The notes under the pieces are model-generated. The model was not told the origin of the DNA and did not search any database. It saw only the letters and a program-made list of their open reading frames with translations. DNA of 64,000 nucleotides, taken from Candidatus Aenigmatarchaeota archaeon (lineage in GTDB: Archaea; Aenigmatarchaeota; Aenigmatarchaeia; GW2011-AR5). The DNA is taken from assembly GCA_016198685.1 (NCBI GenBank), contig JACQID010000008.1, positions 62,001 to 126,000 on the forward strand, read 5' to 3'. How positions within the stretch are numbered: the stretch's first letter is position 1; each line of letters opens with the position of its first letter. The position numbers were made by a program, and so were the translations under genes. Below, piece by piece: positions 8,000 to 43,329 of this stretch.

Positions 8000-8094
8000 G
8001 GCTGTGGTGGTGCAGTGGCAGCATTGGAGCCTGTGGAAAGCGCTTTGGCGCTTACGGAAAGCTCCCGACCCGAGTTCGAATCTCGGCCACGGCC
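8000..8094 (+). tRNA. tRNA-His(GUG) with ~23-nt anticodon-loop intron
   Basis: Acceptor GCTGTGG/CCACGGC, G-1 at 8000 opposite C73 (tRNA-His hallmark), anticodon stem GGAGC/GCTCC, anticodon GTG 8033-8035, putative intron 8037-8059, T-arm CCGAG-TTCGAAT-CTCGG. Confidence 0.88.
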
Positions 8095-8264
8095 CTTTTC
8101 TTATTTATCTGTTCAGGCATGCATTCCCATAAAAAGATTGGATGCGTAATATTTCTTTATTCTCATAATCCTTGGCGGTATTTTCGTGGCTTCGTAACGC
8201 TGCTTGCCTGATCATCGTCTGTATCGCGTTTCTGTAATATTCATGCGGCGCGGAGGTAAGAAAA

Positions 8265-9101
8265 ATGGTCATGTATTTTGATGAAGTAGTCAAAAGGTTC
8301 CCAGGGTCGCTTACAAGGCTTGAAGGGCTCAGCGAGATAGGTTATTCACCATTGACGCTTAACGAGAACAGGGATGCAAAACTTGCCGAAAGAAACAAGC
8401 AATTGGCAGAGATTTTCAAGATACTTGATGTTGAACACGTCGAATGTCTGTACAACGGGGGCGAGGAGATTGCAATACAGTTCCGTGCAGGTTCGCCTCT
8501 CAGACGGCCTGTGAGGCACGGGAATTACGGTGGAAGTTATTTTGGATTCAATCTCGACAGGTTTGATTCATTGGTAAGCGGAATAAAAGAGGCAGGTCTT
8601 GATTGCGATATACGGGTTCATCAGCCCGATAGTGACGGCGGGCAGGAAGTAGCCGAAATTGCGGTAAAATCGGAAGGGGATTCTGGATACGATATCATCC
8701 GCAGAGGCACGCTAAGCGAACTTCATGTAGATCCCGATCATCCAAACCCTAAAGGTGTTCCACCCGGAGATTATTATATACATGAAACAGGCAACACCGA
8801 GAAAGTGCTAGTTGAACTATCACCGCCGAGATGCTTTCTTGGCGTCGAGCTTGGTGGCAGAAAAGTTAACGAAGTGGAGGAGCCGCTATATGAACTTCGC
8901 AGGCGCCTTCCGCAGCTAGCAACAATATATGCAAGGCCCGATGGCACAATACGCGTATCAAGAGACCAGTTGCATAATCCTGATATAAGAAAGGCTCTGG
9001 ATTACGTCGCTAAGACTCTTTTTGATGTCGACACTAATCCGGGGGTTAAGAGTAATTTTTATGCGAACAGTGATGCTCGAAATCTCGCTAATGCTGTATG
9101 A
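8265..9101 (+). CDS. Hypothetical protein (278 aa)
   Basis: Long ORF; no recognised family. Confidence 0.55.
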   Translation: MVMYFDEVVKRFPGSLTRLEGLSEIGYSPLTLNENRDAKLAERNKQLAEIFKILDVEHVECLYNGGEEIAIQFRAGSPLRRPVRHGNYGGSYFGFNLDRFDSLVSGIKEAGLDCDIRVHQPDSDGGQEVAEIAVKSEGDSGYDIIRRGTLSELHVDPDHPNPKGVPPGDYYIHETGNTEKVLVELSPPRCFLGVELGGRKVNEVEEPLYELRRRLPQLATIYARPDGTIRVSRDQLHNPDIRKALDYVAKTLFDVDTNPGVKSNFYANSDARNLANAV

Positions 9102-9195
9102 TACGCCGTATATTGGATTCAGATATCGATACACAACCACTTTGCCCACAAAACGCTTAAGTAGTATTTTTTTCAATCAAAGAAAGGTGGAAAAG

Positions 9196-9503
9196 ATGGG
9201 TGAATATCTTCACGGGCGAGTGCCTTCATATGCAGTAAGAATAATACGTTAACGGCAGATTCATCCAGATTTTTCTATGCAAAGCTTGATGACAGGGGGC
9301 GCATCCGCCTCCCGAGAGTCTTTGTTTCAGGCGAAACAATCCGATTTTCCGCTGACGTGAAGAAGCGCACGGTTTGCATTTTCCGCGGCGGCCGCTATCG
9401 TGTGGATTCAAGGCGCCGCGTTTTCGTGCCTTCTGACATACGGCGCAGCTTGGGGCTTGCCAAAGGTATATATGTCAAAATCGTGGAGCGCGGGAACGCA
9501 TGA
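9196..9503 (+). pseudogene. AbrB/SpoVT-like swapped-hairpin protein split by a frame change (not in the ORF track)
   Basis: RBS (aggtgg) + ATG 9196 encodes MGEYLHGRVPSYAVRIIR then TAA 9250-9252; the -1 frame continues TADSSRFFYAKLDDRGRIRLPRVFVSGETIRFSADVKKRTVCIFRGGRYRVDSRRRVFVPSDIRRSLGLAKGIYVKIVERGNA* ending at 9503, overlapping the next ATG by 4 nt. Confidence 0.65.
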
Positions 9504-10207
9504 AAACCAACAGCGTTCTTTGGAAACCCATAGGGATATTGGGCGGCATGGGGCCGGAGGCCACGGCGGAACTTTACAAGCGCATAGTAAATGTGTGCCA
9601 GTTCAAATACGGCGCCATAAAGGACTCAGATTTTCCAGAAATGTTCATATACAATCTGCCGCTCCCTGACATTTTGGGAGACGAGGAGGACAGGGATGCG
9701 ATACGGGAGCTTATCAATGCGGCTCTCCGTAAACTCAAGGGCGCAGGCTCCGACTTTATCGCCGTGCCGTGCAATACGGCGTTTGATTACATAGACTCGT
9801 CAAGCACAAAATTACCGGTTGTGAACATAATTGAAGAGGCTCTTCGTGAATGCAAGCGCTTGGGAGTTAAAACGGCAGGCCTTATTTCCACGGGCAGAAC
9901 CGCAAGGAGAGGATTATATTCGGCTTTTGCAAGCGGGATAGAAATACGTGTGCTTTCGGAGCAGCCGCAGGAAAGGGCGGATAACGTAATTCTCAACGTG
10001 CTGGCAGGCCGAAAAGTAATCGAAGATCGGGAATACCTGAAAGCGTTATCAACACAGTTCGCAAAAGAGGGATGCGATGCAGTTATTCTGGGATGCACGG
10101 AGCTTCCGCTGCTCGTGTCGCAAGAAGACATGGAATTGCGCACGATAGACACGCTTCAGGTGCTTGCAGAAAGATGCGTTTTGAAATCAAGGGGCGACAT
10201 ATCATGA
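9500..10207 (+). CDS. Aspartate/glutamate racemase family protein
   Basis: GILGGMGPEATAELYKRI, VPCNTAF, GCTELPLL. Confidence 0.9.
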   Translation: MKTNSVLWKPIGILGGMGPEATAELYKRIVNVCQFKYGAIKDSDFPEMFIYNLPLPDILGDEEDRDAIRELINAALRKLKGAGSDFIAVPCNTAFDYIDSSSTKLPVVNIIEEALRECKRLGVKTAGLISTGRTARRGLYSAFASGIEIRVLSEQPQERADNVILNVLAGRKVIEDREYLKALSTQFAKEGCDAVILGCTELPLLVSQEDMELRTIDTLQVLAERCVLKSRGDIS

Positions 10208-10288
10208 AAGAAGGCGGATTTCTTCATAATAGAAGAAACAAGGGAACCGAGAGAATATTCGGGCAATAATCTCTATTACGGACTGAAC

Positions 10289-11113
10289 GTGAGCGCCAAT
10301 GCCAGCCTTGAACCTATAGACCAATTGGATGGTTTCCTCGCAGCCGCACATGTCCAGCGGAATACCGGCGCACTTTTTTATCCATACATAGCCGGCGTCT
10401 ACAATTGTCTGAACGCGAGATCGCCAAAGGAAGCGGCAAAGCAAGCCGAGCGGAGGGCATCGCTTGATGCGGGCAAACAAGTTCTTCTTTCCAATGTGAT
10501 GATAAATCTTGCGATATCCGGTACTGTGCTGACAACCTATGATTTTTGGAAGGAGAGAGGATATTGGGAGATTGTAAGATGCCTTCTGGAGGATGGAATT
10601 GTGGGTCGCCTGCCTGAGGATCTTTGCAAAAGAGGCATTAGATTAGGGGATTTTCCGCGAGAAATTGCCGGCAATATGGGAAAATCGTTGGGTCGTAGTT
10701 TTGATAACCTTTATACCGGAAGCCTATACGTGCCCGTAGAGGTGGCGGAAGCGTTGTGGTTGAGGAAAAGATATGGCGTAGACTGGAAAATCGGTCCGCC
10801 TTCCGAAGAATTGTACGATAGATTCATAGAAGAATCCGGCATTGGCATAATCCGCACGCCGCAGCCAAGCGCAACTGAAGACGGGGAAGTGAAAATAGGA
10901 ATGCCTTATATAGGCAAACCCGCGCAAACAGAAAGGATACTATTTTCAGATGATATGTCATCATTGCAAAGAAAGGCATTTGATGGCAATCCGTCTTTCG
11001 GTTATGCCTTTAAGCTGTCGGACGCATATGAGAAATTATTCGGGAATGATGGGTATTCCCGCCGCCCGGCAGAAAGAATTTATAATCTGATAGAGTTAGC
11101 TAAAAAGAAGTGA
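10289..11113 (+). CDS. Hypothetical protein; true N-terminus probably upstream at ~10204 (frame disrupted)
   Basis: GTG-start ORF; same frame is open upstream as KKADFFIIEETREPREYSGNNLYYGLNV. Confidence 0.55.
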   Translation: MSANASLEPIDQLDGFLAAAHVQRNTGALFYPYIAGVYNCLNARSPKEAAKQAERRASLDAGKQVLLSNVMINLAISGTVLTTYDFWKERGYWEIVRCLLEDGIVGRLPEDLCKRGIRLGDFPREIAGNMGKSLGRSFDNLYTGSLYVPVEVAEALWLRKRYGVDWKIGPPSEELYDRFIEESGIGIIRTPQPSATEDGEVKIGMPYIGKPAQTERILFSDDMSSLQRKAFDGNPSFGYAFKLSDAYEKLFGNDGYSRRPAERIYNLIELAKKK

Positions 11114-11235
11114 TAGTATGGCACTTCGGCCGCGAAAAGGTCGTCAACCATAAATCCGCCGAGATAAGGATGAGCAATAATGGGATGCCCCCCACCACAT
11201 AAAGCTTATAAATTAGTATATACAAGTTATACTTT

Positions 11236-11475
11236 ATGGAGAAACTGGTAAAGGACGTCAAAGAAGAAGAATGGAAAGTCTTCCGTGCCGAGGCTGCCAT
11301 GCACGGCCTTAAAGTCGGGGAATTTTTCGGGTATCTTGTTGAGGAGCATATAAAAATGGAAAGAAAAACCGGCAATTGGGATAATTTGTCAAAGCGCAAA
11401 GTGCTTACCGAAAAGGATGCAAAAAAAATGAAGGAAGCGCTGAAGATATTTGAAAAAGGATACGATTTTGAATAG
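11236..11475 (+). CDS. VapB-type antitoxin (putative)
   Basis: 79-aa ORF directly upstream of a PIN-domain toxin. Confidence 0.65.
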   Translation: MEKLVKDVKEEEWKVFRAEAAMHGLKVGEFFGYLVEEHIKMERKTGNWDNLSKRKVLTEKDAKKMKEALKIFEKGYDFE

Positions 11476-11485
11476 CGGTGATACA

Positions 11486-11881
11486 ATGATCGTGCTTGAT
11501 ACCGATGCCCTGATAGAGCTGGAAAGGAATAACGCAAAGGTTATAGAAAGGATAAGCAAAATGAGGAAGGAGCACCCGGAAGATATTTCCATCACATCTG
11601 CGGTATATGCGGAATTCTCGTTTGGCCTCATGAACTTGAGCAAAGAAAAGCAGGACCTCACTGTTGCATCCCTGAATCGATATAGGGTACTGGATTTTGA
11701 CAGGCCGTCGGCTTCTGAATTCGCTAAGCTGAAATGGAAATTGGAAAAAGAAGGCAGAGTCGTGCCGATAATGGATTTGGTTACCGCATCAATATCTATG
11801 AGACACGGCGCCACGCTCGTCACAGGCGACGCACATTATGAACGGATAAACGGTCTGAACGTGATTATGCTTAATTTATAA
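11486..11881 (+). CDS. PIN-domain toxin (VapC family)
   Basis: MIVLDTDALIELE...SAVYAEF...VPIMDLVTASISMRHGATLVTGDAHYERI (PIN acidic residues). Confidence 0.85.
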   Translation: MIVLDTDALIELERNNAKVIERISKMRKEHPEDISITSAVYAEFSFGLMNLSKEKQDLTVASLNRYRVLDFDRPSASEFAKLKWKLEKEGRVVPIMDLVTASISMRHGATLVTGDAHYERINGLNVIMLNL

Positions 11882-13113
11882 TGATTGTGTATGCCATGAC
11901 ATTCCAGCCGCCGAAAGGCACGAGGGATTTCTTGCCTGAGGAGATGGCAAAGAGAAGGAAAGCTTTTGATACGTGCCGCGCTGTCTTTGAAAAATATGGA
12001 TTTGGGGAAGTGGATACCCCTGTTTTTGAAAGTCTGGAAATGCTTACGGCCAAAGGCTCGTTAGGCGAAGAGGCCGTCAAGGACATATACCGCTTTGAAG
12101 ACAAATCGAAGCGCAAGCTTGGGCTTCGTTATGATCTTACTGTTCCTATAGTTCGGCTTTTCCTTTCTCAGAAATTCTCAAAGCCTGTCAAATGGTATTA
12201 TATTAATAAAGTCTGGCGTTACGAGGATATTTCCAAAGGGAGATGGCGTGAATTCTCTCAATGCGATGCCGAGATTATAGGCTCGCCTTCGGCTGAAGCA
12301 GATTCTGAAATCCTTGGCGTTGCGATAGATTGCCTGCTTTCGCTGGGGGTAAAGGATATAGATGTCCGGATAAACAGCCGCAAAATCATGGATTCTATGG
12401 CTGAGAAAGCCGGCATCAAAGAGAAGGACGCCTTATTCAGGGCAATAGACAAGCTTGAAAAGAAAGGCGAATCTGAGGTAAGAAAAGAGCTTTCTTCTTT
12501 TGCCAATGCAAAGCAGATCGATATCGTCATGAAGGCCGTGCGCTCTTCTTCAGGAGAGCCTGAATTAGATGGCATAATAGCATTGTTGCCGCAGGCATAC
12601 CGCAAATTCGTGAAACAGGATTTTTCAATAGCACGTGGTCTTGATTATTATACGGGCTTCATATTCGAAATACGCATAAAGGGCGCGGAGTCTCTTGGCT
12701 CTGTGCTTGGAGGCGGCCGGTATGATCGTCTCATAGAAAAATACGGAGGCGAGCCTACGCCTGCGACAGGTTTTGGACTTGGCATCGACCGCGTGATAGC
12801 AGGAATGAGTAATACTGCACTCAGTGAGCCGAAAGGACTTTTCATAATTTCTCTAAGCGAACCTGCTAAAGAAAAGGCTCGTGAATTAGCGCAGGAATTG
12901 CGCGTAGCGGGTATCGTTGCCGAAACTGACCTGATGGGTCGTCCTCTCTCCAAGCAGCTTGATTATGCAAACAAAAAAGGCGTGAAATACACACTTGTCA
13001 TAGGCGACAAAGAGCTTTCTTCCGGCAGGGCCATGCTTCGTGACATGAAAAGCGGGAAAGAAATTCAAGTTGGCTTGAAGGCGAAGGAAATCGCGAAAAC
13101 GCTATCGGCTTGA
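11881..13113 (+). CDS. hisS: Histidyl-tRNA synthetase
   Basis: PPKGTRDFLPEEM, GLRYDLTVPIVR, ARGLDYYTGFIFE. Confidence 0.95.
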   Translation: MIVYAMTFQPPKGTRDFLPEEMAKRRKAFDTCRAVFEKYGFGEVDTPVFESLEMLTAKGSLGEEAVKDIYRFEDKSKRKLGLRYDLTVPIVRLFLSQKFSKPVKWYYINKVWRYEDISKGRWREFSQCDAEIIGSPSAEADSEILGVAIDCLLSLGVKDIDVRINSRKIMDSMAEKAGIKEKDALFRAIDKLEKKGESEVRKELSSFANAKQIDIVMKAVRSSSGEPELDGIIALLPQAYRKFVKQDFSIARGLDYYTGFIFEIRIKGAESLGSVLGGGRYDRLIEKYGGEPTPATGFGLGIDRVIAGMSNTALSEPKGLFIISLSEPAKEKARELAQELRVAGIVAETDLMGRPLSKQLDYANKKGVKYTLVIGDKELSSGRAMLRDMKSGKEIQVGLKAKEIAKTLSA

Positions 13114-13359
13114 TTTTTTGCGGTCCGTGCTTTTTCTGCTTTTGCCCATCATCTTCTTGCGGACGGCAAAATAATATACGAGTGCGCCTATAGGGCCGCC
13201 TATGAATATTATGATTATCCAAAGCAGCTTATCCTTGAAGTCGCGCTGTATGCAGTCAATGAGCATCCATACGGTAAATGCAAGAGAGGCGAAACCGAGA
13301 ATCATAGCTAACAGAAAAAACACGCCGAATAATAATGCTAAACCTTCAAGAAGGCTCAT
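13102..13359 (-). CDS. Small membrane protein with PLDc_N-like domain
   Basis: Two TM helices with FTVWMLIDCIQRDFKDKLLWIIIIFIGGPIGALVYYF. Confidence 0.6.
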   Translation of the reverse strand: MSLLEGLALLFGVFFLLAMILGFASLAFTVWMLIDCIQRDFKDKLLWIIIIFIGGPIGALVYYFAVRKKMMGKSRKSTDRKKSSR

Positions 13360-13529
13360 TCTCTTACATGGTAATATTCTATATATAAAGATAATACATC
13401 GAGGTTGCATTCTCATAGAATGCAATCAAAATGTCCGCTGTACAGCAGTACGAAATTCAGCGTAGGGAACACGGATGTTATCGGAAAGCCCGACTGGTTT
13501 TCATACTATCCTTCTGAGGAAAGTCTATA

Positions 13530-13631
13530 TTGAGAAAATCCACAGACATCAAAGTGTTTGCCTGCATGAAATGCGGGAACATGATCTTCACGGCCGATAT
13601 AGATCAGCTAAAGCAGATAGTAAAGAAATGA
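13530..13631 (+). CDS. Possible small CxxC protein (33 aa, TTG start)
   Basis: Reads LRKSTDIKVFACMKCGNMIFTADIDQLKQIVKK*; very short. Confidence 0.3.
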   Translation: MRKSTDIKVFACMKCGNMIFTADIDQLKQIVKK

Positions 13632-13691
13632 TTAATATTTCCCGCAAACCGACTATCGTAATAATACGTTATTTATGGTGCCCGTTCCAGT

Positions 13692-13802
13692 TTAATATCC
13701 AGCCATGACCCTCGCTTCCTCAAGGACGATACCACATTTCATGCAGTATGCTTCAAAACTGCTGTAAATCACTTTTCCGGACTTGCAGTTGGAACATTTC
13801 AT
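13692..13802 (-). CDS. Mini zinc-ribbon protein (36 aa), TFIIB-like ribbon
   Basis: Reads MKCSNCKSGKVIYSSFEAYCMKCGIVLEEARVMAGY* with two CxxC knuckles and TFB-like CGIVLEE. Confidence 0.5.
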   Translation of the reverse strand: MKCSNCKSGKVIYSSFEAYCMKCGIVLEEARVMAGY

Positions 13803-14058
13803 AATTTAATTATCGTTTTTATGCAATAAACATTTTTCCGTGCTCTGACCAATAGATTTCAATAAATATGATAGGTTATCTCAATTGCCATGGGTTCTCA
13901 TGAGTATGGCCTATGTCGGCATTCAATAAGCTTTATAAGAATTTCGATAGTAATCAGTCATAGGCTCTTACTTCTGCCGGCGAAAGCCGGTTAGGTTAGA
14001 ACACAAAATAAAACATAGAGTTAGAATATAAAACAAAAGCATAGAATAGGTGAAATAA

Positions 14059-15882
14059 ATGAAAGAAAAGAATGCGCACAGCGCGCAGAACGTACAGAAG
14101 ATTGTACCCGATACCAGCGTGATAATATCCGGCATACTGTCGGATCTGGTGAAGAAAGGCGAATTGAAAGGGATAGAGATTATAATTCCAGAATTCGTTG
14201 TAGAGGAGCTCCGCTCCCAGGCATCCCGCGGCCGCGAGATCGGCTTCAAGGGTCTGAGGGAACTGAAGGAAATCCGCGCCCTTGAGGAAGAAAAGAAGCT
14301 TACTGTCATAAGAACAGGCAGACGCCAGACAATGGAAGAAATCCAGCTTGCCAAGTACGGCAGGATAGACGGACTCATAGTTGACGTCGCCAAACAGGAA
14401 AAAGCGGTTCTTTACACTTCTGATCGTGTCCAGCATCTGGTCGCTGAAGCCGAAGGTGTAGTTTCGGTATTCTTTGAGCCTTACCAGAAAAAGGAGACGG
14501 TTCTTGCAAAGATGCTCACAGACGATACAATGAGCTTGCATCTCAAGGAAAAATGCGCGCCTATGGCCAAGCGGGGAAGACCTGGCGAAATGAAGCTTGT
14601 GAAAATATCAGACGATCTTCTTACAGAAGAGCAAATGGAATCTATAATAAAAGAGGTCATGGATGCATGCCGGTACGAGGAGGATTCGTTCCTTGAAGTG
14701 GACGGTCATACAGCCAGCGTAGTTCAGATGGGCAATATGCGTATTGCAATAGCAAGGCCGCCGTATTCTGACGGCATAGAAATCTCGGTTGTAAGGCCAA
14801 CAGCGAAGCTTACGCTTGACGATTACAAGCTTTCTGAGAAACTGAAGAAGCGCCTCGAAGGCAAAGCCGAAGGTATACTGCTCTCCGGCCCCCCAGGATC
14901 GGGAAAAAGCACTTTCGCCGCGTCATTGGCGGAGTTCTACGAAAGCAAAAGCAAGATAGTAAAGACCATGGAATCGCCGCGTGATCTTCAGGTGAGACCG
15001 GAAATAACGCAGTACACAAAATTGAAAGGAAGCTTTGAGAATACGGCAGACATGCTTCTGCTTGTTCGTCCGGATTATGTAATCTTTGATGAAGTCCGCA
15101 AGACCAACGACTTCCATGTTTTTTCGGACATGCGCCTTGCAGGCATAGGCATGATAGGCGTTGTGCATGCAACAGATCCGGTAAGCTCGGTTCAGCGTTT
15201 CATTGGCAGGGTTGAAATGGGCATGATACCGCATATCGTAGATACGGTCGTGTATATCAAGGACGGCAAGGTAGGCAAGATATATACCCTCTCACTCATA
15301 GTCAGGACGCCTACCGGCATGACGGAAGCCGATTTGGCAAGGCCGATAGTGGAAGTACGCGACTTTGAAAGCAATGCCCTTGAATATGAAATATACAGTT
15401 ACGGTGAAGAGAACGTCATAATACCTGTCAAGGAAGAGGCAACTTCTGCAGTGCAAGAATTGGCTAAGAAACAAATTCTTGCAGAATTGCGCAAATACGA
15501 CAGGAACGCAGAAGTCGAATTCCTTTCTGACAACAGCATAACGGCATACGTAGAGAACGATGTGATGGCAAGAATAATCGGCAAAGAAGGCCGCAACATC
15601 AAGGAACTTGAAGAAAAACTTGGCTTGAGGATAGACGTTTCTCCAAGAGTCGCCACTATGGGCAAGGAAGCCAAGTTTGTCTACGACGAATCGGGCGGAT
15701 ACATACTCTTTAACTTTAACGAGCGGCTTCAGGGCCATGTAGCGAATTTTCACGTTGACGGCGAGTATCTGTTCTCGGCGACCATAGGGAAAGGAGGAAG
15801 CGTCCGGGTTTCGAAAACAAGCGACACGGGCAAGGAACTAATGAAGGCATTGGTCAAGGGAAGCCTCACTACATTCGTGTAG
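14059..15882 (+). CDS. PIN-domain / ATPase / KH protein (PINA-like, VirB11/PilT-type ATPase)
   Basis: N-terminal PIN (VPDTSVIISG), Walker A GPPGSGKST, late KH segment MARIIGKEGRNIKELEEKLGLRIDV. Confidence 0.9.
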   Translation: MKEKNAHSAQNVQKIVPDTSVIISGILSDLVKKGELKGIEIIIPEFVVEELRSQASRGREIGFKGLRELKEIRALEEEKKLTVIRTGRRQTMEEIQLAKYGRIDGLIVDVAKQEKAVLYTSDRVQHLVAEAEGVVSVFFEPYQKKETVLAKMLTDDTMSLHLKEKCAPMAKRGRPGEMKLVKISDDLLTEEQMESIIKEVMDACRYEEDSFLEVDGHTASVVQMGNMRIAIARPPYSDGIEISVVRPTAKLTLDDYKLSEKLKKRLEGKAEGILLSGPPGSGKSTFAASLAEFYESKSKIVKTMESPRDLQVRPEITQYTKLKGSFENTADMLLLVRPDYVIFDEVRKTNDFHVFSDMRLAGIGMIGVVHATDPVSSVQRFIGRVEMGMIPHIVDTVVYIKDGKVGKIYTLSLIVRTPTGMTEADLARPIVEVRDFESNALEYEIYSYGEENVIIPVKEEATSAVQELAKKQILAELRKYDRNAEVEFLSDNSITAYVENDVMARIIGKEGRNIKELEEKLGLRIDVSPRVATMGKEAKFVYDESGGYILFNFNERLQGHVANFHVDGEYLFSATIGKGGSVRVSKTSDTGKELMKALVKGSLTTFV

Positions 15883-16003
15883 CTCTTTAAAACCCACCGC
15901 TTGAAAGCGGTGGATTTGCACATCGAATTCCCGTTGTTTCATCCGCCGTGTTAATACGGCGGAATTCGATGTTTAAAGGTTTCTTTGAGATTTATTTCAG
16001 CAA

Positions 16004-16119
16004 GCTCGCGTAGCTCAGCTTGGACAGAGCACTTCCCTCCTAGAGGTGACCTGAGCCGCAAGGCGATGAAGATTCCTGGAGTGAGGAAGGGGTCGCGCGT
16101 TCAAATCGCGTCGCGGGCG
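16004..16119 (+). tRNA. tRNA-Arg(CCU) with ~41-nt anticodon-loop intron
   Basis: Acceptor GCTCGCG/CGCGGGC, D GCTC/GAGC, anticodon stem CTTCC/GGAAG, anticodon CCT 16039-16041, intron ~16043-16083, T-arm GCGCG-TTCAAAT-CGCGT. Confidence 0.88.
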
Positions 16120-16258
16120 TTTAAGTATTCGGATATCAAATCCAATATCCGGCAAGTTGCCATTTTTTATTATCTGCTTTTGCGCAAAGACGCATCCAGT
16201 AACCTATAAATATTTCCGGCGACATGGTCATTGATATAATAATTACAGAGGTTTCCCG

Positions 16259-17566
16259 ATGAATAAGTTTTTATTGCCACTTCTTGGTTTTTTCTTTCTC
16301 GCTGTTCCTGTTTATGCAAATGTGAATCTTACTGTAAACGGCACTGACATCGCTCCTGCGTTCATCAACACAATAGACAGGACAGCAATGCTTAACCTTA
16401 CCTTTAACATAACCGGGGATATAGGTGTGGCGAGTTCTATCGTAAATGTAACTTATATAAACGTGACTATAATTAACTCTTCTTTCGGATTCAATATAAG
16501 CAATATAACTGCGGTGGAAATAATCAACGCCTCAGGCGATGTCATAGCTTCTAATACAACAAATTCCAGCGCCTCGAATTTCACAATATTTTTCATAAGA
16601 ACTAACGGGTTTGTTGTCAATTCTTCTCACGGGAATTCAAGCTTTATAATATCGCTCAACATATCCTCCGCCGGAGCATTAGACAACGCTACTGGCGTGA
16701 ATATATCGGCCAATAGCTCTATAGTTACGGCGGGCAACATCAATATAACCGTAGGAAGCAACCGAGGATATACGCATGCATATTCCAATTTCTCGCGCAT
16801 AGCGGATATCCATGCATCAGCAAGCGTCAGCCCACGATATGTGGATACTTTCACAATCAATCAGACGATGATTTATACAATAAACGTCACGGGCAGGGAC
16901 GACATAGGCAATGTCACCATCACACTTCCGGTGGAGTACACAAACATTTCCATACAGCAGATTAAGAAAGACGGTTCTGTTGTTTCTACAGACGTCACAA
17001 GCAGCAATGTAAGCAGCAAAATCAATATAACCTTCACTACTGCCGCCGGTTCTAGCATAATAATCAATTTCACGGTTAATTCTTCAGTTGCGACAGGCAA
17101 TCTGACCTTGAACACGACATTGAAGGATTACAGATTGAACACAACGGCCAATGATAATAATACGGGCGTTTCGGTGTCGCCCATAATCACAATCCATAGC
17201 ATAGTCGGATCAAAGCTGACAGCGCTGCCCAATGGCACGGATTACTGGGAATTCAATTTCACGCTTAACTTTTCGGCCAATATCAGCGGAGGATTCATGT
17301 TCAGGATGCTGGATTGGACAAACAACGCGAGCCAAACAATAAACGTGAATACGACCAATACGAGCTATGCAGAAGTGCGCCTGGATGCAGACGGCACTAA
17401 GAGCGCAAATATAACGAATTCCTATGTATTATCAAGATATCTTCCCATGACATTGGTTTCCACCTCACAGCAGCGCATTGCGCTAAAGATGATACTGCCT
17501 GCAGGCACCCCGGTATCTTCAACGTGGTGGTCCACGTATTTCATGCTGTTCAGGACAGACCCTTGA
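16259..17566 (+). CDS. Secreted/surface protein, very rich in Asn, Ser and Thr
   Basis: N-terminal signal peptide LLPLLGFFFLAVPVYA; many N-x-S/T sequons. Confidence 0.75.
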   Translation: MNKFLLPLLGFFFLAVPVYANVNLTVNGTDIAPAFINTIDRTAMLNLTFNITGDIGVASSIVNVTYINVTIINSSFGFNISNITAVEIINASGDVIASNTTNSSASNFTIFFIRTNGFVVNSSHGNSSFIISLNISSAGALDNATGVNISANSSIVTAGNINITVGSNRGYTHAYSNFSRIADIHASASVSPRYVDTFTINQTMIYTINVTGRDDIGNVTITLPVEYTNISIQQIKKDGSVVSTDVTSSNVSSKINITFTTAAGSSIIINFTVNSSVATGNLTLNTTLKDYRLNTTANDNNTGVSVSPIITIHSIVGSKLTALPNGTDYWEFNFTLNFSANISGGFMFRMLDWTNNASQTINVNTTNTSYAEVRLDADGTKSANITNSYVLSRYLPMTLVSTSQQRIALKMILPAGTPVSSTWWSTYFMLFRTDP

Positions 17567-17576
17567 GGTATAAAAA

Positions 17577-18869
17577 ATGAAATATTTAGCAGCCTTTTTG
17601 TTAGCTTTTTCCATCTTTTTGTTGCCGGCATTTGCAGACACATCCGGCGACATAAATACGTCTCTGCCCCAGCCAATAGTAACGGGGTTCTTTGCTTATT
17701 CCGCAGGAAACTGCACGCAGAATTATGGATACCCGCCCAGCGGCTGCGGGACGTATCAATGCTTCTTCGTTGCAGGCAGCACGTCAAACGGCTCCTGCAG
17801 GCCTACAGTCAATACCGCATGCTATCAGGGCGGAACGTGGTATGCTACAGGTTCGAGCGGCCCATCGTGCAAGAATGATACTCATAAATGGAGTTGCAGT
17901 TCCGGAACATGGGCCGCCAGTGAGTGCAGCAACGGCTGCTCGGCAGGAGCATGTGCAAGCTCAAGCACAGATACCAGTACGAGTACCAGCACTTCAAGCA
18001 ACAGCAACAGCACGACTACAACAGTCAAATATTCGCTTTCAATAACATCATCAATTGATGACTTTAGTCTGATTCAAAATAGCTCTGCATTGAAATCATT
18101 GACTGTGAAGAATAACGGGGACGCGAAAGTCAATAATACCAAGCTTATTGTGGCAGGCATTCCTGATGCATGGGTCATTATATCACCGGCATCGTTTACT
18201 ACAATAAACGTCAGCTCGTCCGTTTCTTTCACTTTGAGTTTCGTAATACCTGAGAATGCGACCGTTAAGGAGTACGATGTCACGCTTACTGCCAAGTCAG
18301 ATCAAGCGGAAGCTTCGGATATCTTTAAACTCAAGGTGCTTCCAAGCACCCAAACGGTGCAGAACGTAATAATCCCGCGTTATGATGGCCTGGGCGCAAT
18401 ACTTCTGGAGCTGGAAAAGAATCTTACAGAATTAAGGAATGCCGGGATCAACAGCACCGAGATAGAGGCTCTTTTTGCGGACATAAGGGCAAAGATATTG
18501 CAGGCGAATACTTCTATATCGTCTTCGGATTATTTTGCGGCCTCTACGACAATGGATGCAATAGATTCGTTGAGTGCAGAGCTCACGCAGAAAATAGAAG
18601 CTGCCAAGGCGGCACAAAGCTCTAACACGGTTATTATCATAATTATAGTCATAGTCCTGATAGCTCTGGGAGTGGTTGCCTATATGCTCATGCCATCCAA
18701 ATTTTCCTCTGGCAAGAACTTGCCGTGGAAAGATGACAAAGACAGCAGCGGATTCCGACCAGGCAAGGGCTTTGTTCCGTCTGAAACCTCGCAGATATCC
18801 AAGATAATGAGCGATATCCAGAGGAAGAAAAAAGAAAGTGCCCGCTATCAATTCGGTGGCAAGCAATGA
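17577..18869 (+). CDS. Membrane-anchored surface protein: Cys-rich head, Ser/Thr linker, CARDB/NEW3-like domain, C-terminal TM
   Basis: Signal peptide, cysteine pattern CGTYQC...C..GCSAGAC, TSTSTSTSSNSNSTTTT linker, TM NTVIIIIIVIVLIALGVVAYML. Confidence 0.75.
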   Translation: MKYLAAFLLAFSIFLLPAFADTSGDINTSLPQPIVTGFFAYSAGNCTQNYGYPPSGCGTYQCFFVAGSTSNGSCRPTVNTACYQGGTWYATGSSGPSCKNDTHKWSCSSGTWAASECSNGCSAGACASSSTDTSTSTSTSSNSNSTTTTVKYSLSITSSIDDFSLIQNSSALKSLTVKNNGDAKVNNTKLIVAGIPDAWVIISPASFTTINVSSSVSFTLSFVIPENATVKEYDVTLTAKSDQAEASDIFKLKVLPSTQTVQNVIIPRYDGLGAILLELEKNLTELRNAGINSTEIEALFADIRAKILQANTSISSSDYFAASTTMDAIDSLSAELTQKIEAAKAAQSSNTVIIIIIVIVLIALGVVAYMLMPSKFSSGKNLPWKDDKDSSGFRPGKGFVPSETSQISKIMSDIQRKKKESARYQFGGKQ

Positions 18870-19540
18870 ACTTCAGGCATGCAGGCAAGGCCATAGGCGG
18901 ACTTCTGTTCCCGCTCATACTGACACTTTTCGTGATTGCACTTTCGCTTTCACAAATAATGGAAGGCGGGGCCCTCAAGGATATCTTCATAGAAGTTATC
19001 TCGTCTCAAGTGCCTGAAGATGTCGATGATGCCAGCTTAGTTGCCGCATTCATCGCCCAGTGCAGCGGGAAAGAAACCCTCCAAGTTGATATTGGTGGGG
19101 AATATCTTCCCGTGAAATGTGAAGAGATGCGGAAATCAAAAACCGCTGAAGATGTGGCAGGCGCCATATTTGATGCGCAATACGCAAAAAAATATGACTG
19201 CAGTTTTATCGATTGCGTGAAATTCATTCCCGGAATAATCGCAACAGCGCAGGGCAACGGCGTCATAAAGAATTTATCCTACATCTTTTTGGCATTGAGC
19301 GTTATTTTTGGCGCGGTGCTCATGGCATCACTCAAAGGATTTGGCAGATTGACTTGGTTTGGAATCGCTGTAATTTCGGTCGGCGTAATGTACTTCCCGC
19401 TTCTTTATATGCCTAATATTGCAGGCGGCTTGGAAACCACCATGGTAAAGACTTTCGCATCCAATTTTTTGATAGTCCTGGTAGCAGGCTTTGCCATCGC
19501 AGCGGCAGGCGTCATTGGCGGATTGCTGAAAAAGAAATAG
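18866..19540 (+). CDS. Multi-TM membrane protein (224 aa)
   Basis: One N-terminal and three C-terminal TM segments; overlaps upstream gene by 4 nt. Confidence 0.7.
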   Translation: MNFRHAGKAIGGLLFPLILTLFVIALSLSQIMEGGALKDIFIEVISSQVPEDVDDASLVAAFIAQCSGKETLQVDIGGEYLPVKCEEMRKSKTAEDVAGAIFDAQYAKKYDCSFIDCVKFIPGIIATAQGNGVIKNLSYIFLALSVIFGAVLMASLKGFGRLTWFGIAVISVGVMYFPLLYMPNIAGGLETTMVKTFASNFLIVLVAGFAIAAAGVIGGLLKKK

Positions 19541-19838
19541 GATTTTTGGAAAGCATATTGCAGATTTCGCAGAATTTGGCAGGGAGATCGTCTTTGCCGA
19601 TGACTTTGGCGTGAAGTGCGCGGGATATTTCCTTTATTGCTTGCCTTACAGGTTCTTCCTGTAGTATGCCTCTACCTCGCAGGCTTCTCATGTACTGTGA
19701 AACTGCAGGCTGCGTTATGCCTATCAAAGATGCCGCTTCACCCTGGCTCATGCCATAATCAGCAATAAGGTCCTTTGCAATCATGGCTCTTAAGGAGGGA
19801 AAAATTTCCCGTACCATGTATTCGCAGAACGGCTGCAT
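19512..19838 (-). CDS. HTH transcriptional regulator
   Basis: HTH LIADYGMSQGEAASLIGITQPAVSQYMRSLRGRG. Confidence 0.85.
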   Translation of the reverse strand: MQPFCEYMVREIFPSLRAMIAKDLIADYGMSQGEAASLIGITQPAVSQYMRSLRGRGILQEEPVRQAIKEISRALHAKVIGKDDLPAKFCEICNMLSKNPISFSAIRQ

Positions 19839-19875
19839 GAGAAATAATGCGGACTGGAGTTTAAAAATCCACTGC

Positions 19876-20340
19876 TTAGAATGATCTCCCGATGGATATT
19901 GCTCTTCCTTTTTCGCTTTTCACTGCCGCAAGCCCGTTCTTTTCAAGGAATCTTCCCCACTCCTCTATCTGCAATTCATGCACGTGAAGTTTTCTTGACA
20001 TTTCTTTCACGTTGACTTCCCCCTTGTCAACTATTTCATCAAAAAGCATGCTGACATTTTTGTCCGAAGACATCTTTACTATCTCGGCATTGTCCTTCAT
20101 GAAAGGCACTATGAACCTACGGAACACGTCCTTGTGAAGTTTATTTTCCTTAGGCACCAAAGCAAGCAGCTTACGGCTGGATTCCAGCAGGGTTTCCCTT
20201 TCGCTCATGAGCGTTTTCCTTTCTTCTCCAAGTTGCTTCACTACATCTGCCAATACCGCAACTGAGGAACTGACTTTATTCAGTTTTTCTTCCATCGCTC
20301 TTATTCGTTTTTCAGTTCTTTCGTCGCGGTCCTCAAACAT
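19876..20340 (-). CDS. Hypothetical coiled-coil protein with possible wHTH C-terminus
   Basis: ORF 154 aa; charged coiled-coil, then EVNVKEMSRKLHVHELQIEEWGRFLEKNGL. Confidence 0.65.
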   Translation of the reverse strand: MFEDRDERTEKRIRAMEEKLNKVSSSVAVLADVVKQLGEERKTLMSERETLLESSRKLLALVPKENKLHKDVFRRFIVPFMKDNAEIVKMSSDKNVSMLFDEIVDKGEVNVKEMSRKLHVHELQIEEWGRFLEKNGLAAVKSEKGRAISIGRSF

Positions 20341-20476
20341 AGAACTGAAATAAATGCAAAGATTATAAAACCTATCGGTCCTGAAAAGCTTTCTGAATCG
20401 GAAAGAAGCTTTTATTAAACTACGTAAATCAGGCTTTCATTACAGTATTAAACGTTGAATGCTATATCTTTTCTGT

Positions 20477-20608
20477 GCCGGCGTCGCATAACCTGGCAAC
20501 TCCGCGCTTTTTGAAAATTAAGCATGGCATCGGGAAATTGCGCTGGTCTCGAATTAACGGGATAACCAGTGTCCTCTGGACTTGCAGGTTCAAATCCTGC
20601 CGCCGGCG
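20477..20608 (+). tRNA. tRNA-Ser(CGA) with a ~39-nt D-loop insertion and a ~10-nt anticodon-loop insertion
   Basis: Acceptor GCCGGCG/CGCCGGC; anticodon stem CTGGT/ACCAG, anticodon CGA 20550-20552; variable arm GTCC/GGAC; T-arm GCAGG-TTCAAAT-CCTGC; insertion 20499-20537 defined by alignment to the tRNA-Ser at 21881. Confidence 0.8.
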
Positions 20609-20764
20609 TCTTATTTTCATAAATCCCTCATTTATATGCATTTAACAGCCCTCCGGTTGCGCATTTTAGCCAAAAATCCCATCTGCCTATAATGGCAAGA
20701 AACGACCGGTTTCCGCCAAATTTACCTAAAATTGGAGCCAGTGTTGCGGATTTGTTGATAGGAT

Positions 20765-21718
20765 TTATATCCCGCCGGCTCGAGTTTCTTCGAGGTACTT
20801 GATTATCATGTTTGTCATTGGCCTTAGGTCGGACTTGTTGCCGGCCTCCAGAGTGGCATAATACGTCGCCCTTTCCCTGCTCTTTATGTTTATCATGGGC
20901 AGGCCGCTCTTCCGCAGGGTGAAATTAAGCAGGAGCCTGCCAACACGACCATTGCCGTCCCGGAATGGGTGTATCGATTCAAAGACGTGATGGAAATAGG
21001 CGGCTATAACGACCGGATGATATTTTTTCTTGTTTGACCTGTACCATAACATCAGATGCTTGAACTGTTTCTGTACTTCGCCTGGGGGCGGCGGAGTGAA
21101 GCTGGCCCCCCTTACATAAACCTGAATGTCCCTGAATCTGCCTGAATGCTTCCATAGAATATTATGCATTAGGAGTTTGTGAAGCTTCAGAACAAAAGCC
21201 CTGTTTATGTCACCTTTGTATGAAAGCATGTAGTCGAAAGCGTCTTTGTGGTTCTGGACCTCGCTTATTTCCCTCAGGGTTTTTCCTTTAGGAACTACCT
21301 TGTCAAAAAGTATCATTCCGGTTTCCTGGAGGGTGATCGTAGAGCCCTCTATGGCGTTAGTGTCGTAAGTGAACTCCGTGACAAAATGCTCATAGTAGTT
21401 TTCGTAAACGCTATTAGTCACTTTCGGCTTGTTTTTCAGGTAAGATTCCTTGATCTGGTTCAAGCGTTTTTTCTGGTCTTCTGAAATGAGTCCGAAAAGC
21501 GGATCTGACTGCATCTTTGCTTCGTTGACTTTTGCGGTTAATTCTGATTTTTTTGCCTTCATGCGTTTTTCAATTTCTTTCTTTGTGAGATCTTTTCCAA
21601 GATAAATCCTCACCTTTTTCCATCTGCCTCCTTGGCGCACATTGTTAACAATATAAAAATATGCACCATGTCCTCTTTTCTGCTTCTCAGTATACATGCA
21701 GTTTATATGGGCACGCAT
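20765..21718 (-). CDS. Fic-domain protein (class II, N-terminal inhibitory motif)
   Basis: Fic motif HPFRDGNGRVGRLLLN and inhibitory TNAIEG. Confidence 0.92.
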   Translation of the reverse strand: MRAHINCMYTEKQKRGHGAYFYIVNNVRQGGRWKKVRIYLGKDLTKKEIEKRMKAKKSELTAKVNEAKMQSDPLFGLISEDQKKRLNQIKESYLKNKPKVTNSVYENYYEHFVTEFTYDTNAIEGSTITLQETGMILFDKVVPKGKTLREISEVQNHKDAFDYMLSYKGDINRAFVLKLHKLLMHNILWKHSGRFRDIQVYVRGASFTPPPPGEVQKQFKHLMLWYRSNKKKYHPVVIAAYFHHVFESIHPFRDGNGRVGRLLLNFTLRKSGLPMINIKSRERATYYATLEAGNKSDLRPMTNMIIKYLEETRAGGI

Positions 21719-21880
21719 GAATAAAAAGCTTCGTTATGTGTGCCCATAGGTGACCGCGCTTGTAGTCGCCCCGCCAAATCAACATTTCTGCAACATGCCT
21801 AATCCTTCGGAGTTTATGCAACAATGCGTCTTAACGCAAACTGACAAAGTTAAGAACATAATACATCTAATTATTCACAT

Positions 21881-21993
21881 GCCGGCGTCGCATAACTTGG
21901 CATTGCGCCAGCCTTGAGAGCTGGTGAGTCTCTGACTCTTGCAGGTTCAAATCTGATGCAGTATCTGCTTCAGTGAAAATCCTGCCGCCGGCG
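21881..21993 (+). tRNA. tRNA-Ser(UGA) with ~28-nt T-arm insertion
   Basis: Acceptor GCCGGCG/CGCCGGC; anticodon arm CCAGC-CTTGAGA-GCTGG; variable arm GAGTC/GACTC; T-stem GCAGG...CCTGC split after TTCAAAT by CTGATGCAGTATCTGCTTCAGTGAAAAT (21953-21980). Confidence 0.85.
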
Positions 21994-22056
21994 TTTTTCT
22001 TCTTCAAAAAATCTTTATAAACGGGCTACCATAAAGTTACTTAGGTGAACGCATAA

Positions 22057-22689
22057 ATGGCATTTCAAAGCATAGGAAGCGTTCTGACAGACTTGGCCAC
22101 AGAAACCATAACCTTTGTGCCGAACCTTGTTGGAGCAATAGTACTGCTCGTGATAGGTTTGGTTGTAGGTAAGGTTGTAGGCAGAGTCGTTAAGGAAGTC
22201 TTAAGCAAGGTAAAGCTGGACTACTATCTGACAGAAACAGAAAGGCCTGTGATAAGCATATCCAACCTATTCGCTCTCATAACACGATGGTGGATATATG
22301 TGGCCTTTATTGTAGCGGCTGTAGACACGCTGCGCATACCCTCACTTTCCGCGTGGCTTACCCAAATCCTGCACTTCCTGCCCAACGTTGTCGGAGCTAC
22401 GACAGTGATGGTCGTGGGCTACGTACTTGCTGAGTTCGTCAAGGACCAGCTGAAGAAGGTTGGAAAGTCCTATTCGTTGTTGATAGGCAAAATAACGTTC
22501 TTCTTCATCATGTACGTGGCTATTGCCGTCGCTTTGCCGATACTCCAGATACCCGCAACACTGATAAGCCAGATACTGCTGATAATAATCGCCTCGATGG
22601 GCGCTGGTATTGCAGTTGCGATGGGCCTCGGTCTGAAAGACGCATTGTCTGACGTGTCCAGAAGATACGTCAAGAAGATGAAGGTATGA
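22057..22689 (+). CDS. Small-conductance mechanosensitive channel-like membrane protein
   Basis: 210 aa, TM-helix repeats (VGAIVLLVIGLVVGKVVGRVV; VVGATTVMVVGYVLAEFVKDQLKKVG). Confidence 0.65.
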   Translation: MAFQSIGSVLTDLATETITFVPNLVGAIVLLVIGLVVGKVVGRVVKEVLSKVKLDYYLTETERPVISISNLFALITRWWIYVAFIVAAVDTLRIPSLSAWLTQILHFLPNVVGATTVMVVGYVLAEFVKDQLKKVGKSYSLLIGKITFFFIMYVAIAVALPILQIPATLISQILLIIIASMGAGIAVAMGLGLKDALSDVSRRYVKKMKV

Positions 22690-22824
22690 GTTTTTCCCTT
22701 TTATTTTCTCTTTAATTTTATTCTTTAAAGTTTTCGTTTCTTATTATAGTGGAGGCATTACGCAGCAAAATATGTCTTTAGGCAGACTGATAATAAGAAT
22801 TAATGTCAGAAGCTCGGTTGCAAA

Positions 22825-22924
22825 GCGCTTGTAGTCTAGTGGCAGGATACGACCTTGCCAAGGTCGAGTTTCGGATCGATAACGGTTCGGACGGCATACC
22901 CGGGTTCAAATCCCGGCAGGCGCA
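22825..22924 (+). tRNA. tRNA-Gly(GCC) with ~28-nt insertion in the variable region
   Basis: Acceptor GCGCTTG/CAGGCGC, anticodon arm CGACC-TTGCCAA-GGTCG, T-arm CCGGG-TTCAAAT-CCCGG; 33 nt between anticodon and T stems where 4-5 are expected. Confidence 0.83.
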
Positions 22925-22944
22925 TACTGGGATTTTCCAAGGAC

Positions 22945-23144
22945 AAGCTTCGCTTCTCCTGGATGTTGAAGACGCCACTTCAACAGAACCGAAGGTTCAT
23001 AGGGAAGACGAAGTCTTCACTGCGCCGGAGGAAGAATGTCCTCCTTGCGAATGCCGGCAGGCGCATCCAAGAAAAAATTCAAATCCCGGTTTGGCATCAT
23101 GATTTGAACCCTTGAATCATCTGAAGATTTTGATTTTCAGCATC
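22945..23144. repeat. Cluster of perfect short hairpins downstream of tRNA-Gly
   Basis: AAGC-TTC-GCTT; TGTTGAAG-(6)-CTTCAACA; GAACC-GAA-GGTTC; GAAGAC-GAA-GTCTTC; GGAGGA-(6)-TCCTCC in succession, 22945-23144. Confidence 0.6.
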
Positions 23145-23250
23145 CGAAGAAGCAGAGATTCTCCAGCGAAGATCCCGCAGAGGCGCGTATCTAAATTCAA
23201 AGCCGATTGTAGTGGGATAGATATTTAAGTGGCTGTTCTAGTAGTATTAT

Positions 23251-23757
23251 ATGATATTTCAGAAAAAGAGCGAGATGCAGGAAATAAAAGACGCTCTTTC
23301 CCAGGATAATCCTTCTGTTCAAAAATATTATGGGCGCGAAAATTTTGCTAAAGAGGAGAATCGCCGCGCAGCTGCTCATGAGCCTGTTCGCACAGAAGAC
23401 GATGCAGTTGCTCCGCCGGTCAAAGGAAGCGCCCCGCTTTTTGTCAAGATTGATAAATACTATGATATTCTTAAGGATCTTCAGGAAATGAAAATGTTTC
23501 TGGCAGGGACAAAGCATCTTTATCATGTTCTTGAGGAAGTCGAAAACGTAAGAAACGACACGCTCAAGATAATGCGCGCAACGATACAGCGTCTTGAGAA
23601 GAGCGTTGTAGAAATGGATTCGGGGCTTCTTCGGCCAAGAGAAGATCAGTACCCAACACCTCAGGAAACGCCTGAGGTTCGCCACATAGAAGGCTCATTG
23701 AATGAGCTTCAGGGCCAGCTTGATGTTCTCAAAAAAGAATTGCAGTCCATGAAATAG
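23251..23757 (+). CDS. Hypothetical coiled-coil protein (168 aa)
   Basis: Charged ORF with C-terminal coiled coil. Confidence 0.6.
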   Translation: MIFQKKSEMQEIKDALSQDNPSVQKYYGRENFAKEENRRAAAHEPVRTEDDAVAPPVKGSAPLFVKIDKYYDILKDLQEMKMFLAGTKHLYHVLEEVENVRNDTLKIMRATIQRLEKSVVEMDSGLLRPREDQYPTPQETPEVRHIEGSLNELQGQLDVLKKELQSMK

Positions 23758-23815
23758 TGGAGATTTCTTTTTACCCGCCATCCATTTAAGCCTTGCCATC
23801 TAATTCTTCAATTGC

Positions 23816-23970
23816 GCGGGGGTAGCCAAGTGGCCAAAGGCGCAAGTTGAGTTATAAGGGCATTATGCCCGATGAATGCGAAACTCAAGAAACGCTTTGG
23901 GATATCTTGTCCCTTAGAGAAGAGTAATCTTCGGGGTATGGGTTCGCAGGTTCAAATCCTGCCCCCCGCA
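23816..23970 (+). tRNA. tRNA-Leu(GAG) with two insertions (anticodon loop ~52 nt; variable arm ~22 nt)
   Basis: Acceptor GCGGGGG/CCCCCGC, D GCC/GGC, anticodon stem GCAAG/CTTGT, anticodon GAG 23849-23851, insertion ~23852-23903; variable stem CCC...GGG interrupted ~23918-23939; T-arm GCAGG-TTCAAAT-CCTGC. Confidence 0.75.
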
Positions 23971-38601: not shown

Positions 38602-38674
38602 GGGCCCGTGGTCTAGCGGCTATGACGCATCCTTGACGTGGATGAAGCCAGCGGTTCAAATCCGCTCGGGCCCA
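38602..38674 (+). tRNA. tRNA-Val(GAC), no intron
   Basis: Acceptor GGGCCCG/CGGGCCC, anticodon arm CATCC-TTGACGT-GGATG, T-arm AGCGG-TTCAAAT-CCGCT. Confidence 0.92.
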
Positions 38675-43256: not shown

Positions 43257-43329
43257 GGGCTTGTAGTCTAGCTTGGTAGGATCCGTGCTTTGGGAGCATG
43301 AGACCCAGGTTCAAATCCTGGCGAGCCCA
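43257..43329 (+). tRNA. tRNA-Pro(UGG), no intron
   Basis: Acceptor GGGCTTG/CGAGCCC, anticodon arm CGTGC-TTTGGGA-GCATG. Confidence 0.92.

Follow-up and report, generated by a model that had tools for sequence, protein, structure and literature searches.

The window, by which we mean the whole 64,000-nt stretch of DNA analysed here, comes from a draft genome of a tiny, uncultured member of the Aenigmatarchaeota and contains eight tRNA genes, all on the plus strand, six of which are interrupted by a total of nine introns. tRNA-His(GUG), in which G-1 is present, occupies 8000..8095 and has a 23-nt intron (8037-8059) at 37/38 with a strict bulge-helix-bulge (BHB) motif, and tRNA-Arg(CCU), at 16004..16119, has a 41-nt intron (16043-16083) at the same site, also with a strict BHB. 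Two introns interrupt tRNA-Ser(CGA) (20477..20608), one of 39 nt in the D-loop, ahead of its last base (20498-20536), and one of 10 nt at 37/38 (20554-20563). Single introns are found in the T-loop of tRNA-Ser(UGA) (21881..21993; 28 nt at 59/60, 21952-21979) and in the variable loop of tRNA-Gly(GCC) (22825..22924; 29 nt at 45/46, 22869-22897), and three in tRNA-Leu(CAA) (23816..23970), of 36 nt at 30/31 (23847-23882), 14 nt at 37/38 (23890-23903) and 21 nt in the variable arm (23918-23938). The remaining genes, tRNA-Val(GAC) (38602-38674) and tRNA-Pro(UGG) (43257-43329), are uninterrupted and were found by ARAGORN, the Rfam model and our intron-aware search.

An earlier, sequence-only reading of this DNA had described eight tRNAs, six of them (His, Arg, Ser-CGA, Ser-UGA, Gly and Leu) with insertions, in the D-loop, anticodon loop, variable arm and T-loop. 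All eight genes proved to be real, the same six are interrupted, and each of these locations was found, together with the 30/31 site in tRNA-Leu. The reading had placed all eight within 8000-23970, which holds for six genes but not for tRNA-Val(GAC) and tRNA-Pro(UGG), and had assigned two insertions each to two tRNAs, which is correct for tRNA-Ser(CGA), while tRNA-Leu(CAA) has three. Its description of the intron positions as mostly non-canonical was too strong, since such sites account for 5 of the window's 9 introns and for 20 of the 41 genome-wide, or about half.

On the unspliced window, ARAGORN detected three of the eight tRNA genes and miscalled tRNA-His(GUG) (Pro when unspliced, correctly His when spliced), and the Rfam tRNA model detected six of the eight, four of them with long insertions. 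The intron-aware search written here scores the mature cloverleaf together with a BHB at every junction, and assumes cleavage between the second and third bases of each 3-nt bulge, a rule that yields the classic motif in tRNA-His. Allowing at most one intron per gene, it recovered six genes (His, Arg-CCT, Ser-UGA, Gly-GCC, Val and Pro), all scoring between 63 and 67. Reversing the window left no match at a score of 38 or above, which rules out chance matches as the source of the window tRNAs.

Genome-wide parsing of short sequences surrounding T-arm pattern matches and Rfam matches reconstructed 42 tRNA species (with separate entries for initiator and elongator Met) from the assembly, which comprises 934,889 bases in 8 contigs and is 93.7% complete. 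Thirty-four of these species (81%) are interrupted, by 41 introns in total, and eight are uninterrupted. Twenty-one introns are at or adjoining 37/38, and the 20 at non-canonical sites are located in the D-loop, at 22/23, from 28/29 to 30/31, in the variable region and in the T-loop, with one near 8/9; most of the non-canonical sites found here have already been catalogued for other archaea (PMC4090602). ARAGORN, which was not used in the parsing and served as an independent check, reported the expected anticodon for 42/42 tRNAs spliced in silico compared to 10/42 unspliced. Standard tRNA finders miss most Aenigmatarchaeota tRNA genes, and this lineage joins the more intron-rich tRNA sets known. 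No gene for tRNA-Cys, Leu-GAG, Leu-CAG or Arg-CCG turned up in the 93.7% complete genome, reflecting either its incompleteness or more fragmented genes.

Pairing at the exon-intron junctions exceeded that of shuffled introns when the 41 introns were combined (Fisher p about 1.2e-19), and 21 of the 41 fell below 0.05 singly. A strict central helix, with all four central pairs, is present in 27 introns; the other 14 have a relaxed motif with three of the four, and several of these pair no better than shuffled introns, suggesting that some of those junctions are possibly misplaced by 1-2 bases. The check for BHB motifs that the sequence-only reading had proposed thus came out in its favor, and it is near certain that the insertions are genuine BHB introns. 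The intron richness is of a known kind, here in a new lineage. Because the genome is a draft in eight contigs, assembly errors could be invoked for the insertions, or the tRNAs could be taken for pseudogenes. Either is hardly credible, however, given that one gene was found per tRNA species, that the spliced forms are near-perfect cloverleaves, and that two same-genus genomes have intron sites in common and conserved exons, with altered introns.

The comparison with the same-genus genome G001 illustrates this pattern of change. The exons of tRNA-Gly(GCC) are identical at 71/71 positions and its intron at 20/29, and tRNA-Ser(UGA) has its intron at the same T-loop site, with 84/85 exon and 21/28 intron positions identical. 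In tRNA-Leu(CAA), G001 retains the three-intron layout with a shortened intron 1. Both genomes have a D-loop intron in tRNA-Ser(CGA). The 37/38 intron of this gene is absent from G001, which has instead a T-loop intron that the present genome lacks; over 28 nt this intron is identical to the one in the T-loop of G001 Ser-UGA (L259, C26:4300-7500). This identity marks a recent copy between paralogous Ser tRNAs, and the comparison as a whole indicates that introns are gained and lost at fixed sites, with at least one copied between paralogs. Large-scale intron transposition inside the present genome was rejected, as comparison of its introns with each other revealed just two weak similarities.

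Splicing of these tRNAs is likely carried out by EndA and RtcB. RtcB is encoded by one gene with an intact frame. The EndA gene lies outside the window (contig C3:36,232-36,726, minus strand), and its 203-aa protein matches PF01974 (E 3.6e-28), PF02778 (1.1e-15) and TIGR00324 (102 bits, cut-off 59.6), and is 91% identical to the EndA of Candidatus Aenigmatarchaeota RIFCSPHIGHO2_02_FULL_49_46. It is the sole EndA in the genome by PF01974, PF02778 and the beta-subunit profile; within the 93.7% complete assembly, no second subunit was found by PF01974 up to E=1 or by the beta-subunit profile. A candidate for a hidden beta subunit, matched at E=0.1, was rejected as a 300-aa frame without the look of an EndA. 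Neither the separate beta gene of an (alpha-beta)2 enzyme nor the three-unit protein of about 400 aa with an ASL that defines epsilon2 is thus present, and the alignment places neither an ASL nor a CSL insertion in these 203 aa. The sequence-only reading had invoked Thermoproteales and ARMAN/Micrarchaeota-type archaea and an epsilon2 or other architecture; the host instead belongs to the Aenigmatarchaeota, and its endonuclease is encoded by one alpha-type gene, with no epsilon2 and no detectable alpha/beta heterotetramer. An AF2 model of the sister EndA (pLDDT 86) has the alpha4 enzyme 1A79 as its best structural match (TM 0.90). The acidic C-terminal VDNEGD is retained in this single-gene EndA, whereas in two-gene relatives the corresponding VDxEGD..YY is altered in alpha and retained in beta. 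Its retention favors a self-sufficient tetramer, and the protein, an alpha-type enzyme, probably forms an alpha4 homotetramer.

All four EndA types share a conserved Tyr, His, Lys triad (PMC6379350), and replacing Y236, H251 or K282 of ARMAN-2 EndA with alanine abolishes cleavage (PMC12397907). The present EndA departs from this triad at the Lys only. In an alignment with 1A79, 3IEY, ARMAN-2, M. kandleri and A. fulgidus, the catalytic Lys site (MJ K156, AFU K287, ARMAN-2 K282) is Ala, at residue 180. This residue is Ala, Thr or Ser in 92/92 distinct relatives and K in 14/14 lysine-bearing relatives, same-class epsilon2 proteins included; the two groups were set by eye on the Lys itself, and it is the accompanying features that are informative. 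Tyr133, His149 and Arg173 are invariant in the 92 lysine-less relatives. In all of these, an inserted loop that always includes Lys144 also separates the catalytic Tyr from the catalytic His. The loop, modeled with moderate confidence (pLDDT about 76 to 83), contains Gly-x-Lys in 91/92, and Gly-Pro-Lys here. Two loopless matches in our genome collection (L188 and L191) both retain the catalytic Lys. The lysine-less, loop-bearing EndA is a new enzyme variant, and no publication dealing with the EndA or the tRNA introns of Aenigmatarchaeota was found in the literature searched, which excluded most subscription journals. In a tree, the lysine-less sequences group together, and NEQ205 falls among them on a very long branch. 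As NEQ205 has both the loop and the Lys, its placement suggests that the loop arose first and the Lys was lost later.

Within the class, EndA sequences are about 50 to 70% identical, and the layouts are mostly a single gene, in some cases accompanied by an epsilon2 enzyme, with three cases of adjacent alpha/beta genes and two of fused two-domain proteins. The adjacent alpha and beta genes (L092-L094) provide a natural series that connects one-gene with two-gene enzymes, and several Aenigmatarchaeota (L095-L101, L223, L224) retain the lysine-less EndA beside an ARMAN-like epsilon2 with the full triad. In G063 (bin779, about 833 kb), which is listed as a chromosome, the sole EndA is the lysine-less form, and a gap in the draft is therefore an unlikely cause of the missing second enzyme. 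G063 is also rich in tRNA introns: Rfam at E 0.01 gave six tRNAs in it (L227-L246), and five of the seven that were parsed are interrupted, two of these twice; most of its tRNAs are maybe still more fragmented, possibly split or permuted. The sequence-only reading had expected a relaxed-specificity endonuclease elsewhere in the genome. This was a sensible inference, but Nanohaloarchaea with the same kind of EndA have mostly intact tRNAs with few introns, indicating that the lysine-less EndA may permit intron richness and does not alone predict it.

The explanation that we favor, and consider probable, is that these are protein-spliced BHB introns cut by a single EndA and joined by RtcB, with a loop Lys compensating for the one that is absent. 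Folding of the pre-tRNA would put each exon-intron junction in a 3-nt bulge, to be cut after the second nucleotide; the single EndA, most likely an alpha4 homotetramer, would cut both junctions, and RtcB would ligate the exons. The enzyme would act with the usual Tyr and His and with Ala in place of Lys, the missing cation being most likely supplied by the Lys of the Gly-Pro-Lys in the Tyr-His loop, and Lys56 may help to accommodate the relaxed motifs. By analogy with the mutant data, an EndA without this Lys is predicted to be dead unless compensated. That the loop Lys functionally replaces the lost catalytic Lys is a proposition for which we see an even chance, and we are equally divided on whether, across a clade of Aenigmatarchaeota and Nanohaloarchaea, the active-site Lys of EndA, an essential enzyme of RNA splicing, has been naturally relocated from the usual helix to this loop.

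The lysine-less EndA might instead cut with no such replacement, the Lys being dispensable (or Arg181 or Lys56 sufficing) and the Tyr-His loop only binding substrate. A role of CSL and ASL lysines in positioning the RNA is established, and the Lys56 position, which corresponds to the ARMAN-2 ASL insertion point, is K/R in 88/92 lysine-less relatives vs 0/14 lysine-bearing ones, with R or K at residue 181 in 62/92. About a third, however, have neither R nor K at residue 181, and Lys56 is not invariant; only Lys144 combines invariance across the lysine-less relatives with a link to their inserted loop. The other high-contrast residue, Arg135, is also found in M. jannaschii. We think this reading rather unlikely. 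Less probable still is that the lysine-less EndA is dead or repurposed, and that the cuts are made by an unrecognized nuclease or by a divergent subunit encoded in sequence that the assembly lacks. Although K282A abolishes cleavage (PMC12397907), several class members have a second, lysine-bearing epsilon2 enzyme and the genome is 93.7% complete, a defunct protein fits poorly with the invariance of Tyr, His and the RNA-binding Arg in 92/92 sequences at class identities of about 50 to 70%. Most relatives, chromosome-level G063 included, have no second homolog, the beta profile recovers EndA alone, and the introns bear EndA-type BHB motifs.

As in Thermoproteales, where Pyrobaculum calidifontis has over 70 tRNA introns (PMC3218864), BHB introns occur at canonical and non-canonical sites with up to three per gene, and sites 20/21, 22/23, 29/30, 30/31, 37/38, 45/46 and 59/60 are common to both (PMC4090602). 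There are fewer introns here (41), yet 81% of the genes are interrupted; introns of different isoacceptors have little sequence in common, whereas large-scale intron transposition has been reported in Thermoproteales, and a single alpha-type EndA takes the place of their (alpha-beta)2 enzyme. The epsilon2 EndA of ARMAN-2 (4FZ2, 9W2K) likewise belongs to ultrasmall archaea, has lysines near the active site and has an expected broad substrate role, but it is a three-unit chain with an ASL insertion, while the present protein is a single alpha unit with Ala at the K282 equivalent and an extra loop between Tyr and His. The alpha4 EndA of Methanocaldococcus jannaschii (1A79) is also encoded by one gene, is the best structural match over the full length, and retains the acidic VDxxGD..YY near the C-terminus. 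It differs in that six extra loop residues with Gly-Pro-Lys are present here, K156 is replaced by Ala, and the predicted substrates here include non-canonical introns. The Nanoarchaeum equitans EndA alpha subunit (NEQ205, 3IEY) has a similar Tyr-His loop of equal length (KKGKRSEREH), but retains the catalytic Lys and partners with the beta subunit NEQ261. A large clade that depends on splicing for its essential tRNAs thus lacks, at the usual place, a Lys deemed indispensable. These natural enzymes make the role of that Lys testable, and also the question of why the triad does not suffice and lysines of the CSL or ASL are required as well.

Several individual tRNAs have unusual features. Initiator tRNA-Met (G000:C2 near 21,230, minus strand) apparently has three introns, at 29/30, at 37/38 and in the variable region, according to a partly manual parse, and its position 33 is C (loop CCCATAA), where T is usual. 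A tRNA-Ile with the anticodon UAU contains two introns (G000:C3:52,030-52,144); its usual archaeal counterpart has a CAU anticodon with agmatidine. Euryarchaeal tRNA-Trp introns contain box C of an sRNA, and the 80-nt tRNA-Trp intron of this genome (G000:C6 near 153,961, minus strand) includes GATGATT, a possible sRNA box C.
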